The notes beneath the pieces were generated by a model. It saw only the letters and a list, made by a program, of their open reading frames with translations. It did not search any database and was not told the origin of the DNA. Source: Candidatus Poribacteria bacterium (GTDB lineage: Bacteria > Poribacteria > WGA-4E > PCPOR2b). From it: a stretch of DNA of 64,000 nt. Position 1 is the stretch's first letter. The number at the start of each line of letters is the position of its first letter. The translations under genes and the position numbers were made by a program. The stretch spans positions 1 to 64,000 of the forward strand of contig JAPPKS010000032.1 in the NCBI GenBank assembly GCA_028819845.1, read 5' to 3'. This document shows, in pieces, positions 5,959 through 34,973 of the stretch.

Positions 5959-8900
5959 ATGAAAAATAGACGCGTTTTTTTCTGGATACTTTTGACATGC
6001 GCAGCAGTGCTTATGCTCGAAGTAGGCGACCGCAGCGTCTACGCCGCCATCACCGGCAAGATTTCGGGTGTAATTACCGATGAAGCGACCAGGGCACCGC
6101 TGTCGAATGCTACAGTAACAATTGTCGGGACAAGCAGCACTGCGGCAACGAATGACGATGGCTATTATGTCATGACAAACATCCCGCCGGGGAGTAATGA
6201 TGTAAAAGTCGAACTCACAGGTTACGCTTCAGAGACTGTAATGGGTGCGAAGGTTTACGCCGGACTCACTACAACCTTAAACTTTGCGTTGGAGGCGGCC
6301 GAGGTTATCACGCTGGAAGAGATAGAGGTGACGGCAACCAAACCGCTGATTAAGCGGGATGTTACACAAAGTACAAGGATTATTGAAGCAGACGAGATTG
6401 CTGCCATGCCGCGTGACACCGTGAACGGGATTTTGCAAACGCAGGCTGGCGTCGCGGTAGATAATGCGACCGGTACGCTCCATATTCGCGGGGGACGCTC
6501 AATGGAGGTCAAATACCTGATTGACGGCATCCCGATTAATGACCCGATTTTCAGGGGCTTGGGTGTGAGTGTCGACGCGAATTCGATTGAACAGATGGAG
6601 GTCATCACGGGCGGCTTCAATGCGGAACACGGTGATGCGCAATCCGGGGTAATTAATCTCATCACGAAAGCCGGGACGCAAAAATTTTCTGGACGCATCC
6701 GGTATCGCGTTGGACAGTGGGCGGAGCACCACGGCGACCCGTTATACGGTCCTTGGCTGGATCCTGACAACGGTTTCCGGCCTGTCGCGCTTGAACCTTT
6801 CAGGGGAATCTTTATCGGCAAGCCTTACGATTATCAGACGCCCTACCGCGGTGAAGCGGTTACAGTTGGGGAGTTGGCAGCGCGTGAGGGCGATGACAGG
6901 GTAGAATTCGCGGAGATTGTCCCAGGTGTGTATGCGGACATGACGAAAAATCCGCTTATTCCGGTTATCGATCCGGAGACGGACGAACCCATGGTAAACC
7001 CGGATACGGGGGAGACCATCACGGCGCGCCAACCATATCAGGACGCCGACGGCACGGTTATCGACTATGAAAAAAAACAGGTTACGCTGTTCGACAACTA
7101 TGTTGTGGATTTGGAGCAGTACAGCGGGTTATTCAACGACACGAAGAATTATGAACTTAACCCGATGCATATAGGGGAATTTGCGCTCAGCGGACCGATA
7201 TGGGGCAATCGGTTGACATTCTCCGCCGCCAGCCAGGTGCGGCGGGATGAAAGCTATCTACCTAACAATGACTCAAGGGGATACACTTTTCAGGGCAAAC
7301 TTAAGTTTGAAGTAACACCGGAAATCAAGCTGACGGCGAGCGGGTTGATGGATGAGCGAGAATCCAACTCGTACGGCGGTGCGCTGCGCTTTCTACCCAG
7401 CGCGATTCCGGTGGCGAACCGGGATGGGCGGAGCATGTCGGTGCAGCTTTCACATAATCTCAACTCAGGTACGTTCTACACCCTGACGGTTGGGCAGTTT
7501 CATCGTTCCTTTGAGAGCCATCAACCGGACAAATTGTGGGATCCGTTGGATAAAACGTTTGAGGAGAACGCTTGGGATCCGGAAAAAACCTTTGAGCAGA
7601 ATCAGGACGAGGGGCGAATTAGGAACCCGACCCAGCAGGCGTACAACGATACAAACTACTTCATTGCCGGCGATGACAATAGTTGGGTTGACCGTAGCTC
7701 AACGACTTCCATCGTTAAAGCGGATTTTGCCAGCCAAGTTACGTCAAATCACCAAATCCAGACGGGGGCTGAATTCTCGACGCAGAATCTATATTATCTC
7801 GGAGCGACAAATCACGGGAGTTCAAACCTCTACTTGGAGTATTATGACGTGACGCCCGGCACTATCAGCTTGTATTTGCAAGACAAGATGGAGTACGCGG
7901 GGATGATTGTCAATGCGGGGTTGCGGTATGAGCAGTATAATCCTGAAGGGGTCATTCCTAAAGACCCGCTGAATCCGCTCGAACTTAACGAGGATGGGAC
8001 ATTTAAGTTAGACAAGAGCGTCTACCGGGTCGGGTTGCCCATCATCAAAGATTCGGTTAAGCCTTCGGTCAAGCGTTCGCTTGCACCGCGCCTTGGCATG
8101 TCGTTTCCGATTACAGATCGGGCGAAGTTGTACTTTACGTACGGACATTATTATCAGATTCCGCGGGGCGATGATCTCTACGAGAATCTTTACTTTGATA
8201 TGCGGGGCGCCATTCGGAGAAAGGGGAATCCCGACCTCGAACCGGAGAAGACTATCGCGTACGAGGTTGGCGTGGCACAGCAACTCACGGACGACTTAAC
8301 CGTTGACCTGACCGGTTTCACAAAAAATATCAACGACCTTGTGAGCAGCCTGCATGTCGATATTACCAACGATTACAGTTATTTCATCAATGATATCTAC
8401 GGACGGGTTCAAGGGTTTGAGTTTTCGCTTCGCAAGTGGGGCACGGGTCAGAGCCGGGTGTCCGGGATGTTCAGCTATACGTATTCCGTTGCGAAGGGGA
8501 AGGGCTCCAGCCGCAATCTGGGCTACCTGACCTTTTATCGGCAGCAGCCCGAAGTGACTGAAAGCCACCCTTTAGACTGGGATCAGCGGCACATCGTTAC
8601 CGGAACGTTGGGGATTCAATTGCCGTTTAATACTTCGGCGAATATGATTGGCAGGTACGCCAGCGGCTTGCCGTACACGCCGAATCCTGCCGCGCCGATT
8701 AAGCCTGCCGTGAACTCGAAGCGGTACCCGCCGACGTACAATGTTGACGTACTACTTAGCAAGCGGATGGTGCTCTCGGGGATGACGTATACCGTGTTTG
8801 CGGATATTCGGAACGTCTTCAACACGAGAAATTTGGACGACCTGATTGATCCGGTTACATACGACCGGTACGGTATCCCGCTCAACAATAGGAAGCATTC

Positions 8901-8961
8901 GAGTCCGATCTCGTGGAGTTCACCGCGCTTGGTCATGATGGGGGTGAGTTTGGATTTTTAG
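5959..8961 (+). CDS. TonB-dependent receptor with carboxypeptidase-regulatory-like domain
   Basis: A 1000-residue outer-membrane receptor that imports a ligand using TonB-ExbB-ExbD energy. The start is ATG at 5959, six bases after AGGAGAGG. Domains in order: signal peptide (1-30), a CarboxypepD_reg-like beta-sandwich (about 35-110; GVITDEATRAPLSNATVTI), a plug domain (about 120-230; TQAGVAVDNATGTLHIRGG and IEQMEVITGGFNAEHGDAQSG) and a long 22-strand-type barrel ending in LVMMGVSLDF with a terminal Phe. The extra N-terminal domain is typical of SusC-like and Bacteroidetes-type receptors, but no SusD partner is adjacent. Energising genes exbB/exbD occur 40 kb away in this window. The ligand is unknown. 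Confidence 0.93.
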   Translation: MKNRRVFFWILLTCAAVLMLEVGDRSVYAAITGKISGVITDEATRAPLSNATVTIVGTSSTAATNDDGYYVMTNIPPGSNDVKVELTGYASETVMGAKVYAGLTTTLNFALEAAEVITLEEIEVTATKPLIKRDVTQSTRIIEADEIAAMPRDTVNGILQTQAGVAVDNATGTLHIRGGRSMEVKYLIDGIPINDPIFRGLGVSVDANSIEQMEVITGGFNAEHGDAQSGVINLITKAGTQKFSGRIRYRVGQWAEHHGDPLYGPWLDPDNGFRPVALEPFRGIFIGKPYDYQTPYRGEAVTVGELAAREGDDRVEFAEIVPGVYADMTKNPLIPVIDPETDEPMVNPDTGETITARQPYQDADGTVIDYEKKQVTLFDNYVVDLEQYSGLFNDTKNYELNPMHIGEFALSGPIWGNRLTFSAASQVRRDESYLPNNDSRGYTFQGKLKFEVTPEIKLTASGLMDERESNSYGGALRFLPSAIPVANRDGRSMSVQLSHNLNSGTFYTLTVGQFHRSFESHQPDKLWDPLDKTFEENAWDPEKTFEQNQDEGRIRNPTQQAYNDTNYFIAGDDNSWVDRSSTTSIVKADFASQVTSNHQIQTGAEFSTQNLYYLGATNHGSSNLYLEYYDVTPGTISLYLQDKMEYAGMIVNAGLRYEQYNPEGVIPKDPLNPLELNEDGTFKLDKSVYRVGLPIIKDSVKPSVKRSLAPRLGMSFPITDRAKLYFTYGHYYQIPRGDDLYENLYFDMRGAIRRKGNPDLEPEKTIAYEVGVAQQLTDDLTVDLTGFTKNINDLVSSLHVDITNDYSYFINDIYGRVQGFEFSLRKWGTGQSRVSGMFSYTYSVAKGKGSSRNLGYLTFYRQQPEVTESHPLDWDQRHIVTGTLGIQLPFNTSANMIGRYASGLPYTPNPAAPIKPAVNSKRYPPTYNVDVLLSKRMVLSGMTYTVFADIRNVFNTRNLDDLIDPVTYDRYGIPLNNRKHSSPISWSSPRLVMMGVSLDF

Positions 8962-9019
8962 GTGGTATCAGGCCGCTAGAGTAGAAATGCTCTTAAAGCG
9001 TGGAGAAATCGTGTTGAGT

Positions 9020-9208
9020 ATGAAGATTGAAACGTTTACGGCGAGTGTATGGCAAGAAGATGACTGGTTTATTGCCCAATGTTTAGAGGTTGATGTTGCG
9101 AGTCAAGGCGGAAGCGAAGCAGAGGCATTGGTCAATCTAGGAGAAGCGCTGGAGTTACATTTTGAACCGCCTCGATCGAACTTAAAACCAATACCCCGCT
9201 ACAAATAA
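9020..9208 (+). CDS. HicB-family antitoxin-like protein
   Basis: A 62-residue protein with the HicB/UPF0150 fold signature: MKIETFTASVWQEDDWFIAQ, then CLEVDVASQGGSEAEALVNL and a short tail with EALELHF. HicB proteins neutralise the HicA mRNA interferase and often repress their own operon. No HicA partner with its His-containing dsRNA-binding-like domain is seen on either side, so this is an orphan. ATG at 9020 gives the usual family start; GTG 9011 lies closer to GGAGA and is possible. The next frame downstream is a BrnT-like fragment, so this small area looks like a collection of toxin-antitoxin relics. Confidence 0.75.
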   Translation: MKIETFTASVWQEDDWFIAQCLEVDVASQGGSEAEALVNLGEALELHFEPPRSNLKPIPRYK

Positions 9209-28536: not shown

Positions 28537-28809
28537 TCAATTAGGAAAAATCACTGTTCCTTGAGTTCGGACATGGATCCCTAATCTTTCGACTTCATCA
28601 TCGTCAAGCGTGATTTCGGCAGTTCGCATGAATTTTTCGTTTCCTTGTTTATTCATGTCGTTAACCTTATAGAACGGAATTTTGCCTTCCGAATTCAAGT
28701 CATTGATCCCTTTGGGTGTTTTTCCGTTTGCGATTAAACCAATACTACCAACCGTCGTCCACACCCACCCGTCGGGAAGATTGAACGGACCGGTATCCGC
28801 TTCGCTCAT
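28537..28809 (-). pseudogene. Truncated type I restriction specificity subunit (hsdS)
   Basis: About 90 codons of the first target-recognition domain of HsdS, the DNA-specificity subunit of type I restriction-modification enzymes. MSEADTGPFNLPDGWVWTTV opens the protein, and GKIPFYKVNDMNKQGNEKF and GTVIFP are typical TRD1 blocks. After VIFPN the frame stops, where a full HsdS runs on for another 300 residues. The start is taken at ATG 28809, since the same position begins the vestige behind fic at 33783. No hsdM or hsdR is seen. The loss is probably linked to the adjacent transposase remnant. Confidence 0.8.
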
Positions 28810-28970
28810 GTTACCTGTTTCCCTCGGGTTCATTGATTTTGTACTTTCCTTGTCCTAGTAGCGCGTGTCTGATCGCCGTAACCGTGTTTCCGCGAAGGTC
28901 TCTAAATTCGTCGCGTGACAGGGATTAATTTGAATGTTCAAGTGGAAACAGGTTGGTGTACTCTCCGGTC

Positions 28971-29822
28971 TCACTGACAGCACTCGGCGCCGTATCTCTC
29001 CAAGCGTTCGTCAATTTGATTCTGCAGTGTGACAGTAGTATGACTGTTTGTCTGGTAATGGGGAGCCGGCAACCCGAGTTGTTCCATCTCTTCACGCATC
29101 CGGCGGGTGCCTTCGCTCAACGCCCGCACGAAAGCTGTTCCCTGCTCGTCCTTCATGATGCGCATCCATTCGACAATTTTCGGGTTACGCAGTACAGAAT
29201 CAAGCGATGTCTCATGGAGACTGAAACTGTCCGGAACCTGTTGCGGAATGCTCCCCGGGCTCCTAACCGCCAAGCTATCCCTATACACCGTACAGCGAAT
29301 CGGGTTCGAGACTCCATAGTCTCTATGAACAACTGCGTTTACGAGTGCCTCATCAATAGCTATGAAGGGGTATTCGGGCTCATCAATGAATCCACCGCTA
29401 TGATTTCGTTTCGAGAAGGCGCGGAAGATTGCGGAATCATTAAAAAAGATCCGAAGATTGCGAATGATGTTCGGAAGGGCGCCGTCGAAGTCTTTATCCA
29501 ATGTAGTCGCTCCGTAGTTCTTCAAGTCTTCAGCGGCTACATCATAGCGCAACAACCGAACAAATGCGCCCCCAAAGCGTCTGCGCGGATTCGAGACGAA
29601 AAACAGATAGCCCGCATTCGTGAAGGCATATTTGCCGTTTTCTTTAATGAGCGCCCCTGCTTGAAATAAAACTTCTTCGGTTGTGTAATCGTATTGTGAA
29701 TCTCTGGTTTCGAGGAAAGCCTTTTTGAATTCCTCAACGACGCCCATGTCGAGCTCACCTGCATCATAAGGACAACAGTAAGACAACTCAAAGTCAACTA
29801 TTATCTCGTTTAAGCTGTTCAC
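28971..29822 (-). CDS. ATPase-domain half of an AlbA/HATPase protein, split by frameshift
   Basis: A 283-residue C-terminal part of a putative DNA-binding/HATPase_c_4 protein, in a frame different from that of the N-terminal part at 29794-30300. Homologues read continuously from LTEQDREQLKRD into IVDFELSYC; here one extra base (or two missing) breaks the frame at about 29800. The domain contains EALVNAVVHRDYGVSN, a GHKL-type ATP-binding motif, with a following PGSIP segment. Such proteins often accompany type I restriction systems and may regulate them. If the split is real in the organism, the gene is inactive or needs reinitiation at the GTG of 29822; an assembly error is equally possible. 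Confidence 0.7.
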   Translation of the reverse strand: MNSLNEIIVDFELSYCCPYDAGELDMGVVEEFKKAFLETRDSQYDYTTEEVLFQAGALIKENGKYAFTNAGYLFFVSNPRRRFGGAFVRLLRYDVAAEDLKNYGATTLDKDFDGALPNIIRNLRIFFNDSAIFRAFSKRNHSGGFIDEPEYPFIAIDEALVNAVVHRDYGVSNPIRCTVYRDSLAVRSPGSIPQQVPDSFSLHETSLDSVLRNPKIVEWMRIMKDEQGTAFVRALSEGTRRMREEMEQLGLPAPHYQTNSHTTVTLQNQIDERLERYGAECCQ

Positions 29823-30300
29823 GATCTTGTTCAGTTAAAGGAAGACATTGTGACCCATCACGCTTTAAAGCCTTTGGAAACGAATCAGTGGTTTCGCATA
29901 TCGCATTTGATACCCAAGGCGTATAAAGCAGGTATATTCTATCGTCATCGCCGTGTGCGTTTTTACAATGTAATTCTTCTGTTATTGTGCTATGGCCTCT
30001 TAATCCTGTCTCTTTTGCTTGAAGAATTCCGTTTAAATTTACTTCCTGAACATGATTCCATCCAATGATTGTTCCATCATCAGCCATTCCGAGGACGAGC
30101 AATCCGCCGTGCCGGTTGGAATTTGCAAACGCTGAAATAGTCTGAATAATCTTGTCTCTGATATTGTCTCTCTGGGATTTAGAGTCAGCCCTGACTTCTT
30201 TCCGCTCGAAAAACTGCCCTTCCAGGTTCCGAGATTGCAGGTAAGTTAGGAATTTTTTCGGCTTTTTGAAAACTTCTTTAGGTGTTGGCATCGCTAACAC
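29794..30300 (-). CDS. AlbA-domain half of the split AlbA/HATPase protein
   Basis: A 168-residue N-terminal part with a Schlafen AlbA_2 domain: EGQFFERKEVR, then IQTISAFANSNRHGGLLVLG and MADDGTIIGWNHV. This domain binds nucleic acid in the family. It ends in TEQDREQLKRDNS and a stop. The next frame, starting at GTG 29822, carries the ATPase half, and the two overlap by 29 bases. It is upstream of the truncated hsdS, so it belonged to the same locus. Confidence 0.7.
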   Translation of the reverse strand: MLAMPTPKEVFKKPKKFLTYLQSRNLEGQFFERKEVRADSKSQRDNIRDKIIQTISAFANSNRHGGLLVLGMADDGTIIGWNHVQEVNLNGILQAKETGLRGHSTITEELHCKNAHGDDDRIYLLYTPWVSNAICETTDSFPKALKRDGSQCLPLTEQDREQLKRDNS

Positions 30301-31433: not shown

Positions 31434-31598
31434 AATAGCAAATCCTCTCGGGTCTCCATCAGAAACCACGTTCCAACAGTATATCGCATCTATATCGGTC
31501 AATCAACCGAATTGGGTGGTGCAGATTTTTCGATGCCTTGACCGGGATATTCCGTCATATAGGTTTGAAAATCGCGAAGACAACGAGGTTCACCATTT

Positions 31599-32156
31599 GT
31601 GGATGAGACATTCATCGAAGTATATGAATCGCATGTTGACGCTATCTACCGGTTTGTTCTTCGGCTACTAGGGAACCCGACAGATGCCGAGGACATGACC
31701 GCCGAGACATTTCTCAGAGCGTATCAGGGTTGGACTGAGTTACTTGATCCGGCGGCGGTGCGATCGTGGCTGTTTCGCATCGCGTACAATGGGTGTATCG
31801 ACCTGTTACGCCAGCGCCAACAACGCCCGGCGATTTCATTCGATTATCCAATTACGCATGAATTGACTCAGTCGTTATCTTTCTCGCTGGATTCGACGGA
31901 ATCGTCGCTCAAACGGTTGATTAACGCTGAAAGCAGGGAGTATTTGCAAGCCGCCTTACTTCAACTACGACCTATCGACCGCACGGTGCTGGTGTTGGGC
32001 GAATTGGAAAATATGCCGAACCGAGAGATTGCAAAGATTGTTCAACGGAGCGAAATCGCTGTTAAATCACTTCGGCAACGCGCACGCAACGCCTTGCGCG
32101 ATGAGGTGTTGCGGCTGCTCAAACAGAGAGAAATATCAATCGAAGACCTGTTCTAA
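31599..32156 (+). CDS. ECF-type RNA polymerase sigma factor
   Basis: A 185-residue sigma-70 factor with only regions 2 and 4. Region 2 (about 10-75) contains YRFVLRLLGNPTDAEDMTAE, followed by TFLRAYQGW, then SWLFRIAYNGCIDLLRQRQQ. Region 4 (about 115-175) contains LQLRPIDRTVLVLGELENMP and IVQRSEIAVKSLRQRARNAL. The start is GTG 31599 with GAGG ten bases before. No membrane anti-sigma gene follows; instead the next gene encodes a DNA polymerase beta-clamp paralogue, 85 bp away. That pairing is unusual and suggests the sigma factor may control it. Confidence 0.92.
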   Translation: MDETFIEVYESHVDAIYRFVLRLLGNPTDAEDMTAETFLRAYQGWTELLDPAAVRSWLFRIAYNGCIDLLRQRQQRPAISFDYPITHELTQSLSFSLDSTESSLKRLINAESREYLQAALLQLRPIDRTVLVLGELENMPNREIAKIVQRSEIAVKSLRQRARNALRDEVLRLLKQREISIEDLF

Positions 32157-32241
32157 TTCCAGACTCAGAAAAACACACCCAAGGAGGAATCAATTGGGAA
32201 GGACATTTCTCAATGCACGCCTTGCGGGTGGGGAGGAACCG

Positions 32242-33363
32242 ATGAAATTCACTTGTGATGTGGCTGCGCTGAAGCGCGCCTTAACCCTTTTGAAACTCGA
32301 CGAACCGGGGACGCACTTGTCGATTACGATTCAAACTGCGCAACTACAGTTTAGATGCTACACCGACGACGGGAATTTCCGTGTAGATTATGCGATTCCA
32401 GCGGAGGTCGAAGCCCATGGTAAGGCAACCGTTCCCCCGGAGGTGCTGTCGCGAATCTGTGATCACGCGGTTGGTGAAAGGCTGCGTTTCAGTCACCACA
32501 AATGGCATGGGTGTTTGGAAGTTGATGGCAATCAACATCGGCATGCCGTGCGTACACATACGGGGAAACGGCAGAAACCCGAACTTGAAGCGCTTTCAGA
32601 CGCGCCCGACTATGAAGTGCAAGCAACGCAGTTCGGAGCGGCTCTGAAATCCGTTCTGTTTGCGTCGGTACAGCCATCAGACTCGGACGAGGCAAACCGG
32701 CGTCCCTTCTTTACGGGAGCGCTCTTTCATCAACATGAAGGTGAAGAACGAATCGTGGCAACCGATGGCAGACGGATGGCAGTGATTACCTTACCATCAA
32801 TGAATAAACCAGCCGAAGCGGAAACCTCTATTCCGATGCGGGCAATGCCTTATGCCGCTTGCATGAAGATGATTGATTTGATAGAATCCTTGAATCCAAA
32901 CATCTGCCGCCTCCGCTTTACCGAAAACGCCGTGGGTTTTGAGGCTGAGGGGGTTTCGTTAAGGTGCCTCTTACCGAAAGGGGATTTCGCGGATTATAAG
33001 TGGGTTCTTGAAAAAGCGAACAGCGCCCGCTTGGAAATCAGGTTGAGTCGTCAAGAGTTGCTGTGGGCACTCAGAGCCATCCGCATAGGTGACGACCATC
33101 CCCACAACCGTACGGAGTTTCGCATTCGTGATGGACAGTTGACTGTTGAAAATAGTACCCGCTGGGGAAATTCGAAAGCTTGTGTGCCGATTCAGTATGA
33201 GGGGCAAGGTACTGCGGCAGGATTCGATGCCAGTTTCATTGAAGACGGGTTAATGCACACCGATGCCGCCGAAGTTATATTCTGGATGCGTCCGGAACCG
33301 ACTGATTCAATGCGCCTTGAATTGGCGCAAAACTTTCAATACGTTGTAATGCCCATGAGATGA
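32242..33363 (+). CDS. Divergent DNA polymerase III beta-clamp (DnaN) paralogue
   Basis: A 373-residue protein of typical beta-clamp length. ATG 32242 follows GGGGAGGAA and gives the usual DnaN opening MKFTCD. The diagnostic blocks are HEGEERIVATDGRRMAVITL in the middle domain and YVVMPMR at the end, the latter nearly identical to the terminal motif of true clamps. The first domain is strongly diverged (CDVAALKRALTLLKLDEPG). It is not in a dnaA-dnaN-recF context but behind an ECF sigma factor, and it overlaps the next small gene by ATGA. It could be a second, specialised clamp, for example for repair polymerases. I cannot tell whether the canonical dnaN exists elsewhere. Confidence 0.83.
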   Translation: MKFTCDVAALKRALTLLKLDEPGTHLSITIQTAQLQFRCYTDDGNFRVDYAIPAEVEAHGKATVPPEVLSRICDHAVGERLRFSHHKWHGCLEVDGNQHRHAVRTHTGKRQKPELEALSDAPDYEVQATQFGAALKSVLFASVQPSDSDEANRRPFFTGALFHQHEGEERIVATDGRRMAVITLPSMNKPAEAETSIPMRAMPYAACMKMIDLIESLNPNICRLRFTENAVGFEAEGVSLRCLLPKGDFADYKWVLEKANSARLEIRLSRQELLWALRAIRIGDDHPHNRTEFRIRDGQLTVENSTRWGNSKACVPIQYEGQGTAAGFDASFIEDGLMHTDAAEVIFWMRPEPTDSMRLELAQNFQYVVMPMR

Positions 33364-33650
33364 TGCAAGCCGAGCTTTCTACTGACAGATTCATAAAATT
33401 GATGCGCGAAGTTTTCGCTCAAGAAACAATCGACCATGAACGCCGCGCCCGAATTTACGCCCGCATCAGAGCTAATCCGCGCATTCAGGGGATGGAACTA
33501 TGGGCGAACGCGGCAACGCCGTTCGACGAACCGTCCGTTGAAGACATCACGGATGAGGCAGAGCAACTATGGCTGTTCCCAGATTATGACCTGCCAGCGC
33601 CTCCAATCGAATCAACCGTGTCTCCGTTGCTTCACGGCTCACAAATCTGA
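33360..33650 (+). CDS. Small unrecognised protein translationally coupled to the clamp paralogue
   Basis: A 96-residue protein whose ATG overlaps the stop of the clamp gene (ATGA), implying coupled translation. It has an N-terminal charged helical part (MREVFAQETIDHERRARIYA) and an acidic Pro-rich C-terminus with DEAEQLWLFPDYDLPAP. The QLWLFP stretch is reminiscent of the short beta-clamp-binding peptides (Q-L-x-L-F) used by clamp partners, so this may be a ligand of the clamp next door. That reading is inference from the motif and the operon only. Confidence 0.7.
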   Translation: MMQAELSTDRFIKLMREVFAQETIDHERRARIYARIRANPRIQGMELWANAATPFDEPSVEDITDEAEQLWLFPDYDLPAPPIESTVSPLLHGSQI

Positions 33651-33738: not shown

Positions 33739-33783
33739 TTACGTTTCAGACACCGTACATGAACCCGCATCCGTTTCGCTCAT
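33739..33783 (-). pseudogene. Vestige of an hsdS start behind fic
   Basis: A 14-codon frame (MSETDAGSCTVSET) begins at an ATG that overlaps the stop of fic in ATGA fashion. The surrounding 45 bases match the start of the truncated hsdS at 28809 (MSEADTGPF) and the leader before it. Fic therefore once led a type I specificity gene that was deleted down to its first few codons. Confidence 0.6.
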
Positions 33784-34973
33784 GTTAGGTGTTTCGTTGG
33801 GTTCAACGATTTTGTTCTTTCAGTCATGATAGTATTGAATATTTCATGTGCAACAAACAGACGGTTTCTCTGTCCCCCGGTTATTTCCGTAATCGTGCCT
33901 TTCTCAATCAGGTAATCCACTCCTCGCTGAACGGTGGGAAACGGTATCTCCCAAGCCTTTGATAGTTCTGAAATTGAGATAATTGGATTAGCAAAAAGAT
34001 GGTCAATCAAGCGGGTTACAGCCATCGGCACCCTTCGACCGGTTGCAACTACCCTGTATTGTTTCTGTAAGTCAAGTAGTTTTTGAATCGTTGCAAGGGA
34101 GTCTTCTGACTGTTGACGAACCCCGTTCAAGAAAAATGTAAGCCAGGCTTTCCAATCCCCTTTTTGGCTTACATTCAGCAATAATTCATAATACTCATTT
34201 CTATGCTGCTCAAAAAAGTCGGAAAGATAAAGAAGGGGCTGTGATAGCAACTTCTTCTCCAATAACATAAATGCGATAAGAAGCCTGCCAATTCTTCCGT
34301 TGCCATCAACAAACGGGTGAATCGCCTCAAACTGATAATGGACCAGAGCGCATTGAATCAATGCCGGTTCCTTTGCTTCGGAATGGATATATTTTTCTAG
34401 GTCTGAAAAACATTCTTTCATCTCTGGGACCGGCGGCGGAACATAAGTGGCATCAATCAACGTGCACCCGGGGCTACCAATCCAGTTTTGGCTTGTCCGC
34501 ATTTCCCCCGGTGTGGCATATTCGCCCCGTACCCCCTTCATTAGGATTCCGTGTATTTCACAGATTAGACGGGAGCTAATCGGCAACTCTTGCAATCGAT
34601 TGATTCCATGCTCCATTGCTCTCACATAGTTTATTACCTCCTTAACGTCAGACACGGGGGACGGTTCGGTTTCATTCGCCTCAAACAGAAAGAGGTCGTC
34701 CAAGCCGGATTGGGTGTTTTCGATTCTTGAACTGGTTACGGCTTCGCGCCGAATAAGCAGTGGTCTAATTAACTGATGTACATAAGGGAGCAGTTCCCCC
34801 GCGTCGGATAACGCTTCAAGCTTGCTGCCTGCCTTGGATAGCAGATTAACCAACTCCCAATCCACTTCAATTTTGGGTGGGAGTGGATTCGGCACATAAG
34901 CCCAATACTCAGGTTCGCGTATCGTGCGCATACATCTACCAGCGGTTGAATTTGTGAAGTCATCTGGACGCAT
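33780..34973 (-). CDS. Fic-domain protein with N-terminal inhibitory helix and winged-helix tail
   Basis: A 397-residue Fic protein that most likely transfers AMP to a target hydroxyl. The active site is canonical: HPFVDGNGRIGRL (about residue 218). The motif TSSRIENT at about 79-86 fits the (S/T)xxxE(G/N) inhibitory helix placed N-terminal to the Fic core (class II), so activity should be self-restrained. The C-terminal 90 residues (ISELSKAWEIPFPTVQRGVD, then LIEKGTITE) form a winged helix for DNA binding. Two long palindromes lie just upstream of the start, consistent with self-repression. The gene ends in overlap with an hsdS vestige. Fic proteins of this type often sit in restriction loci; the target is unknown. 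Confidence 0.93.
   Translation of the reverse strand: MRPDDFTNSTAGRCMRTIREPEYWAYVPNPLPPKIEVDWELVNLLSKAGSKLEALSDAGELLPYVHQLIRPLLIRREAVTSSRIENTQSGLDDLFLFEANETEPSPVSDVKEVINYVRAMEHGINRLQELPISSRLICEIHGILMKGVRGEYATPGEMRTSQNWIGSPGCTLIDATYVPPPVPEMKECFSDLEKYIHSEAKEPALIQCALVHYQFEAIHPFVDGNGRIGRLLIAFMLLEKKLLSQPLLYLSDFFEQHRNEYYELLLNVSQKGDWKAWLTFFLNGVRQQSEDSLATIQKLLDLQKQYRVVATGRRVPMAVTRLIDHLFANPIISISELSKAWEIPFPTVQRGVDYLIEKGTITEITGGQRNRLFVAHEIFNTIMTERTKSLNPTKHLT

Follow-up and report, generated by a model that had tools for sequence, protein, structure and literature searches.

Why a bacterium should encode a β-clamp paralogue directly behind an ECF sigma factor gene is the question raised by a locus in the window analyzed here, a 64,000-nucleotide stretch of DNA from a Candidatus Poribacteria genome. 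A preliminary description had noted a divergent, full-length DnaN (MKFTCD...YVVMPMR) downstream of the sigma gene, overlapped through ATGA by a frame for a 96-residue protein with a QLWLFP stretch, and had suggested that the clamp could be stress-induced and have its own partner. An ORF check of the window confirmed all three frames (Table 1). The concern that this might be the only dnaN of the genome falls away because a separate DnaN, the housekeeping copy of 367 aa, adjoins a dnaA-type ORF on contig C12. Support was found for a divergent second dnaN, for a coupling of this gene to the sigma factor and for the motif-bearing partner, whereas the idea of a stress-induced replication clamp was not supported. 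Instead, a replication part seems to have been turned into a transcription regulator.

Table 1. Features of the sigma–dnaN2–small protein operon in the window.
Feature	Position	Strand	Evidence
Predicted autoregulatory ECF-type promoter, TTTCGATGCC-N15-CGTCATA, 40 nt 5′ of the sigma start	31528..31559	+	Conserved motif
ECF sigma factor, 185 aa, GTG start	31599..32156	+	Pfam Sigma70_r2 and r4_2; dN/dS 0.09–0.14
Sigma C-terminal tail SIEDLF, candidate clamp-binding motif	32136..32153	+	Tail conserved in orthologues
DnaN2, degenerate β-clamp paralogue, 373 aa	32242..33363	+	NCBIfam dnaN 2.4e-21; AlphaFold2; Foldseek
Shortened loop I of DnaN2, DNA-contact segment without R24 (approximate)	32299..32325	+	Deletion relative to housekeeping clamps
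DGRRMA, part of the conserved DnaN2 peptide-binding cleft	32764..32781	+	G174 and R176 conserved
C-terminal VVMPMR, DnaN2 cleft wall	33343..33360	+	M362 and P363 conserved
ATGA start–stop overlap of dnaN2 and the small ORF, translational coupling	33360..33363	+	Overlap common to 6/6 operons
Small partner protein, 96 aa, N-terminal helices and disordered C-terminal half	33360..33650	+	AlphaFold2; orthologues in five other genomes
QLWLF motif, residues 69–73 of the small protein	33564..33578	+	Invariant in four orthologues

The paralogue, DnaN2, is still recognizably a clamp. The NCBIfam dnaN match spans residues 25–373, and Pfam recognized clamp domain 2 but not domain I. AlphaFold2 returned a confident three-domain clamp (pLDDT 84.5, pTM 0.84), and the best Foldseek matches were solved bacterial clamps, with E. 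coli β at E 9e-28 and a TM-score of ~0.8. To compare functional sites, E. coli residues were mapped on an alignment of ~20% identity holding 6 operon copies, 35 fused DnaN proteins and 31 other clamps of the unfused type; this last group takes in every sigma-less DnaN from the fetched loci, extra paralogues and one DnaN-FtsZ protein among them, and is wider than the dnaA-linked genes alone. K198 and R205 were left unscored and dropped as evidence on DnaN2, since a nearby insertion makes the alignment uncertain at these positions.

In the E. coli clamp, loop I and residues R24, R73 and R80 contact DNA (PMC5042465). Relative to housekeeping clamps, loop I of DnaN2 lacks 5–7 residues, and each of the three arginines is missing from all six operon copies (0/6), with acidic or neutral residues at the R73 and R80 positions; among the comparison clamps, R24 is an arginine in 30/31, and R73 and R80 are K or R in 31/31. 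The same division holds for K74, R96, E301 and E304, which we take to be the ring-interface charges of the E. coli clamp: 0/6 in the operon copies against 30–31 of the 31 other clamps. These charges could have been rewired rather than lost, and a rewired homodimer could form.

The peptide-binding cleft has fared differently. G174, R176, M362 and P363 are present in 6/6 operon copies, L177 is replaced by M in 6/6, T172 is kept in 4/6 (otherwise S or C) and P242 in 5/6; M364 appears as M or L, and R365 as R or K in 6/6. DnaN2 and replicative DnaN thus have the three-domain fold and the peptide cleft in common, whereas DnaN2 differs in its lack of a dnaA context, its shortened loop I and the loss of DNA-contact and interface residues. 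A cleft that is kept while the DNA and ring residues are lost points to a regulatory peptide-binding scaffold, and DnaN2 looks like a pseudo-clamp of this kind, presumably regulating the sigma factor.

A ligand for such a cleft may be encoded by the next gene. AlphaFold2 modeled the small protein with two fairly confident helices (residues 3–21 and 26–38); most residues from 49 onward have pLDDT <50, and QLWLF lies inside this disordered region. The motif is invariant in the small proteins of the four close operons, and QLxLF arises in just 0.13% of shuffles of the protein's own residues. In the distant family f5 the N-terminal part of the protein is conserved and QLWLF is not: one copy may carry QLELY and the second shows no convincing motif, so that a conserved motif in a flexible region is a feature of the four close orthologues and not of f5. 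A further motif at the N-terminus, QTD[LF]F, occurs in three of the four close copies and is missing from that of the window; it was rejected as a general second motif. E. coli clamp structures among the Foldseek matches were solved with the peptides AcQLALF, AcQADLF and AcLF, and in this genome the replicative Pol III alpha has QMNLF. QLWLF would probably also fit the housekeeping clamp, and its resemblance to the polymerase motif means that the small protein could reach the real clamp as well. Searches against family profiles, PHROGs and Pfam included, gave no significant match for the small protein, and a search for structural relatives found none.

The sigma factor consists of regions 2 and 4 only (Sigma70_r2, 2e-16; r4_2, 1.8e-12), which at ~185 aa fits the ECF class. 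A classical anti-sigma factor beside an ECF sigma is usual, though not universal; family profile searches gave no anti-sigma match among the operon neighbors, which are DnaN2 and the small protein. In four orthologues the sigma C-terminus reads S[IL][EK]DLF; the f5 sigma ends in LNLDDLLK. Of the complete ECF-hit ORFs that were inspected in this genome, the operon sigma alone has a DLF-type ending; the tail lacks the usual Q of clamp-binding motifs. Upstream of the sigma gene, TTYCGRTSCC-N15-CGTC[AT]TA is found in 5/5 operons with upstream DNA, distant f5 included, the motif having been derived from the same five sequences in which its conservation is counted. A regulon search with this motif across the whole genome of the window found no further convincing site: each of the 14 other sites has two mismatches and lies inside an ORF, leaving autoregulation through the predicted promoter as the sole supported target. 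The same genome also contains many ECF sigma matches in frames of ~950–1250 aa with large C-terminal extensions (L130, L131, L135, L138, L140, L144 and L145).

To assess the distribution of the operon, a profile search was run on 85 genomes of the Poribacteria phylum, to which the genome-by-genome survey is confined. The preliminary description had called for a look at related genomes, and these do carry the same operon: beyond the window it occurs in five genomes of three families. The window and four further genomes (L005/L035 on one contig, L036, L037 and, in f5, L066) keep the order sigma–dnaN2–small gene, and dnaN2 with the small gene is seen in a sixth, f5 contig L065, which begins inside dnaN2. 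Small-protein orthologues were found in all five other genomes, the overlap with dnaN2 ranges from 1 to ~20 nt across the six operons, and the sigma factor is 41% identical to its most distant orthologue. The six operon DnaN2 proteins form a discrete group, scoring >500 bits with everything else <130 bits, except for one fragment in G070 (168 bits). Between close pairs, dN/dS is 0.09–0.30 across all three genes, which indicates that sigma, dnaN2 and the small gene are each under purifying selection. The module is nevertheless dispensable, because it is internally deleted in G009, where a relic (L067, ~8483–9190, minus strand) joins the operon promoter and sigma start to small-gene remnants, and because it is absent from most of the phylum.

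Coupling of a clamp paralogue to an ECF sigma, already proposed from the window, is seen in a second form. In family f3, single ORFs of ~570–600 aa combine an ECF sigma with a complete DnaN; such fusions occur in at least 36 of 59 f3 genomes, single-contig genomes included, and none was seen outside f3 among the matches listed. In the DnaN tree the fusions fall into two groups, apart from one another and from the operon clade. Constraining them to one clade gave an AU test p of 0.019, which disfavors a single origin for all fusions; we regard this as moderate evidence because the tree was quick and the constraint was picked after the first tree was seen. The sigma parts fall into three different lineages, 25–32% identical. 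Sigma and DnaN were thus apparently joined as single proteins on two further occasions, independently of the operon, and the fusions support a functional coupling of the two. Since the cleft is eroded in many fused copies (R176 is Q in 29/35), fused and unfused mechanisms may differ. The type A sigma lineage is also found joined to FtsZ, to FtsZ with a Pol III alpha fragment and to WD40 repeats; it thus has many partners, the clamp being one of several.

Several related architectures were recorded alongside these. Two sigma-DnaN fusions of 455–460 aa stop after DnaN domain II (L162:1258–2625, minus strand; L097:1495–2877, plus strand). ECF sigma-FtsZ/tubulin GTPase fusions, such as L048:3263–4483 (minus strand; Pfam 5.7e-42), occur in at least 40 f3 genomes, full-length matches among them, and two of the copies inspected lack the GGGTGTG motif. 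A 1347-aa ORF (L159:954–4997, minus strand) joins ECF sigma, FtsZ and a Pol III alpha fragment with PHP, NTPase and finger domains, and similar frames of 1350–1450 aa are present in many f3 genomes. Also found were a 693-aa DnaN-FtsZ fusion (L041:4926–7007, minus strand), a tandem dnaN pair (L040:5073–7570, plus strand) with similar pairs in several f3 genomes, and, on contig C10 of the window's own genome, a 563-aa ORF whose N-terminus resembles DnaN domain I and which also contains a DUF4159 domain (L004:1501–3192, plus strand).

Considering operon conservation, purifying selection, the cleft kept where DNA and ring residues are lost, the two motifs, the promoter and the separate fusions, we hypothesize that the three genes form one transcription-control module built as a partner switch on a pseudo-clamp, a reading to which we give an even chance. 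The sigma factor would transcribe its own operon. DnaN2, retaining the three-domain fold and docking cleft but no longer a DNA-encircling processivity ring, would act as its regulatory partner and hold it through the [IL]xDLF tail; the translationally coupled small protein would then fill the same cleft via QLWLF and displace the sigma factor. The steps differ in strength. Docking of QLWLF on DnaN2 is reasonably likely, docking of the sigma tail is possible but somewhat less so, competition for the cleft and its direction are doubtful, and any tie of the module to replication state is rather unlikely. Against the partner switch stand the missing Q in the sigma tail, the failure of f5 to keep QLWLF, a possible rewiring of the interface charges, the probable fit of QLWLF to the housekeeping clamp, the dispensability of the module and the frequent erosion of fusion clefts.

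Parts of this logic have precedents among ECF sigma factors. The portions of PMC8999054 on which we draw mention partner-switch control of ECF sigmas, in which two proteins compete for one regulator as proposed here, although the protein families differ and the switch in the operon is a prediction. They also describe systems in which a domain fused to the sigma replaces the anti-sigma factor, as may be the case in the sigma-DnaN fusions, with no mention in those portions of DnaN, FtsZ or Pol III alpha extensions. The window operon departs from those fusions in that its equivalent of the domain is encoded by a gene of its own and is joined by a third partner.

The closest working analogy to the operon is late transcription in phage T4 (gp55, gp33 and gp45; PMC2988020, PMC7892883), where a sigma-family factor and a small protein, both with clamp-binding motifs, are likewise combined with a sliding clamp. 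The T4 components come from a phage, and their clamp is a DNA-loaded trimer; here the sigma is of the ECF type, with both region 2 and region 4, and its partner is a β-type pseudo-clamp without DNA and ring residues, encoded in one operon or fused. In a cellular T4-late-like system, promoters would be activated by the sigma in the role of gp55 and the small protein in that of gp33, both bound to a clamp loaded on DNA, which could be DnaN2 or the housekeeping DnaN. The clamp and a sigma with a hydrophobic-acidic C-terminal tail match these roles, as do a small protein of ~100 residues with its clamp motif in the C-terminal half and the resemblance of QLWLF to the polymerase QMNLF. We nevertheless consider this improbable. 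The DNA-tracking clamp of T4 has no counterpart in DnaN2, whose DNA-contact and ring-interface residues are gone in 6/6 copies; tracking by DnaN2 is accordingly judged unlikely from sequence, although the housekeeping clamp could still be the partner, and the ECF sigma has its own region 4, so a gp33-type sigma-4 mimic is unneeded.

Another explanation would make the small protein a replication modulator aimed mainly at the housekeeping clamp; DnaN2 would be an antagonist that soaks it up, and the sigma would merely drive expression. Clamp-targeting small proteins are known in general, QLWLF fits the Q-x-x-L-F usage of this genome, and the QTD[LF]F motif of three close copies is compatible with this role. 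The DLF tail of the sigma and the separate sigma-DnaN fusions would then be left unexplained, and we hold this scenario to be unlikely too. The earlier proposal of a stress-induced clamp with a dedicated partner, understood as an alternative clamp for replication or repair, agrees with the retained fold and cleft and with the ECF-type promoter; with loop I shortened, R73 and R80 acidic or neutral, interface charges gone, no polymerase gene adjoining the operon in the flanks examined and fusions that point toward transcription, it appears quite improbable. That DnaN2 is a decaying paralogue behind the sigma gene by chance would suit its patchy occurrence and the existence of one deletion relic or more, but is very hard to reconcile with dN/dS well below 1 in all three genes, gene order kept across families and the separate sigma-DnaN fusions. 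A phage or mobile origin was rejected, as no relative was found in viral contigs and matches to phage clamps were weak only, and so was a defence system, as PADLOC gave no match for the three operon proteins.

A survey of open papers returned no sigma–clamp pairing in a cell, in keeping with the earlier impression that the arrangement lacks a described counterpart, and nothing relevant on sigma–clamp fusions, DnaN paralogues or sigma-FtsZ fusions; being limited to open literature, it is not proof of novelty. To our knowledge, clamp-linked transcription is known only from T4-related phages. If the partner-switch model is true, a cellular sigma factor is regulated by a clamp-derived protein, an arrangement that would apparently have arisen three times in one phylum and would show replication parts becoming signaling parts. 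It also makes directly testable whether bacteria use sigma factors to sense the state of replication or of division. More broadly, and on balance doubtfully, Poribacteria may have repeatedly recast parts of the replication and division machinery, namely the clamp, FtsZ and Pol III alpha, as regulators of ECF sigmas, whether partners or domains, so that replisome or divisome state sets transcription; the window operon would be the unfused pseudo-clamp version, read via clamp-binding motifs.

The neighborhood of the operon in the window includes other genes of note, all on the minus strand. Two overlapping frames at 28971–30300 match parts 1–172 and 173–446 of one PADLOC pAgo model and carry AlbA and ATPase domains; they are probably one gene split by a frameshift. 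A 98-aa ORF at 28537–28833 resembles a portion of the specificity subunit of type I restriction systems, and a Fic/DOC family protein adjoins the operon at 33780–34973 (PADLOC SoFic, 2e-119).
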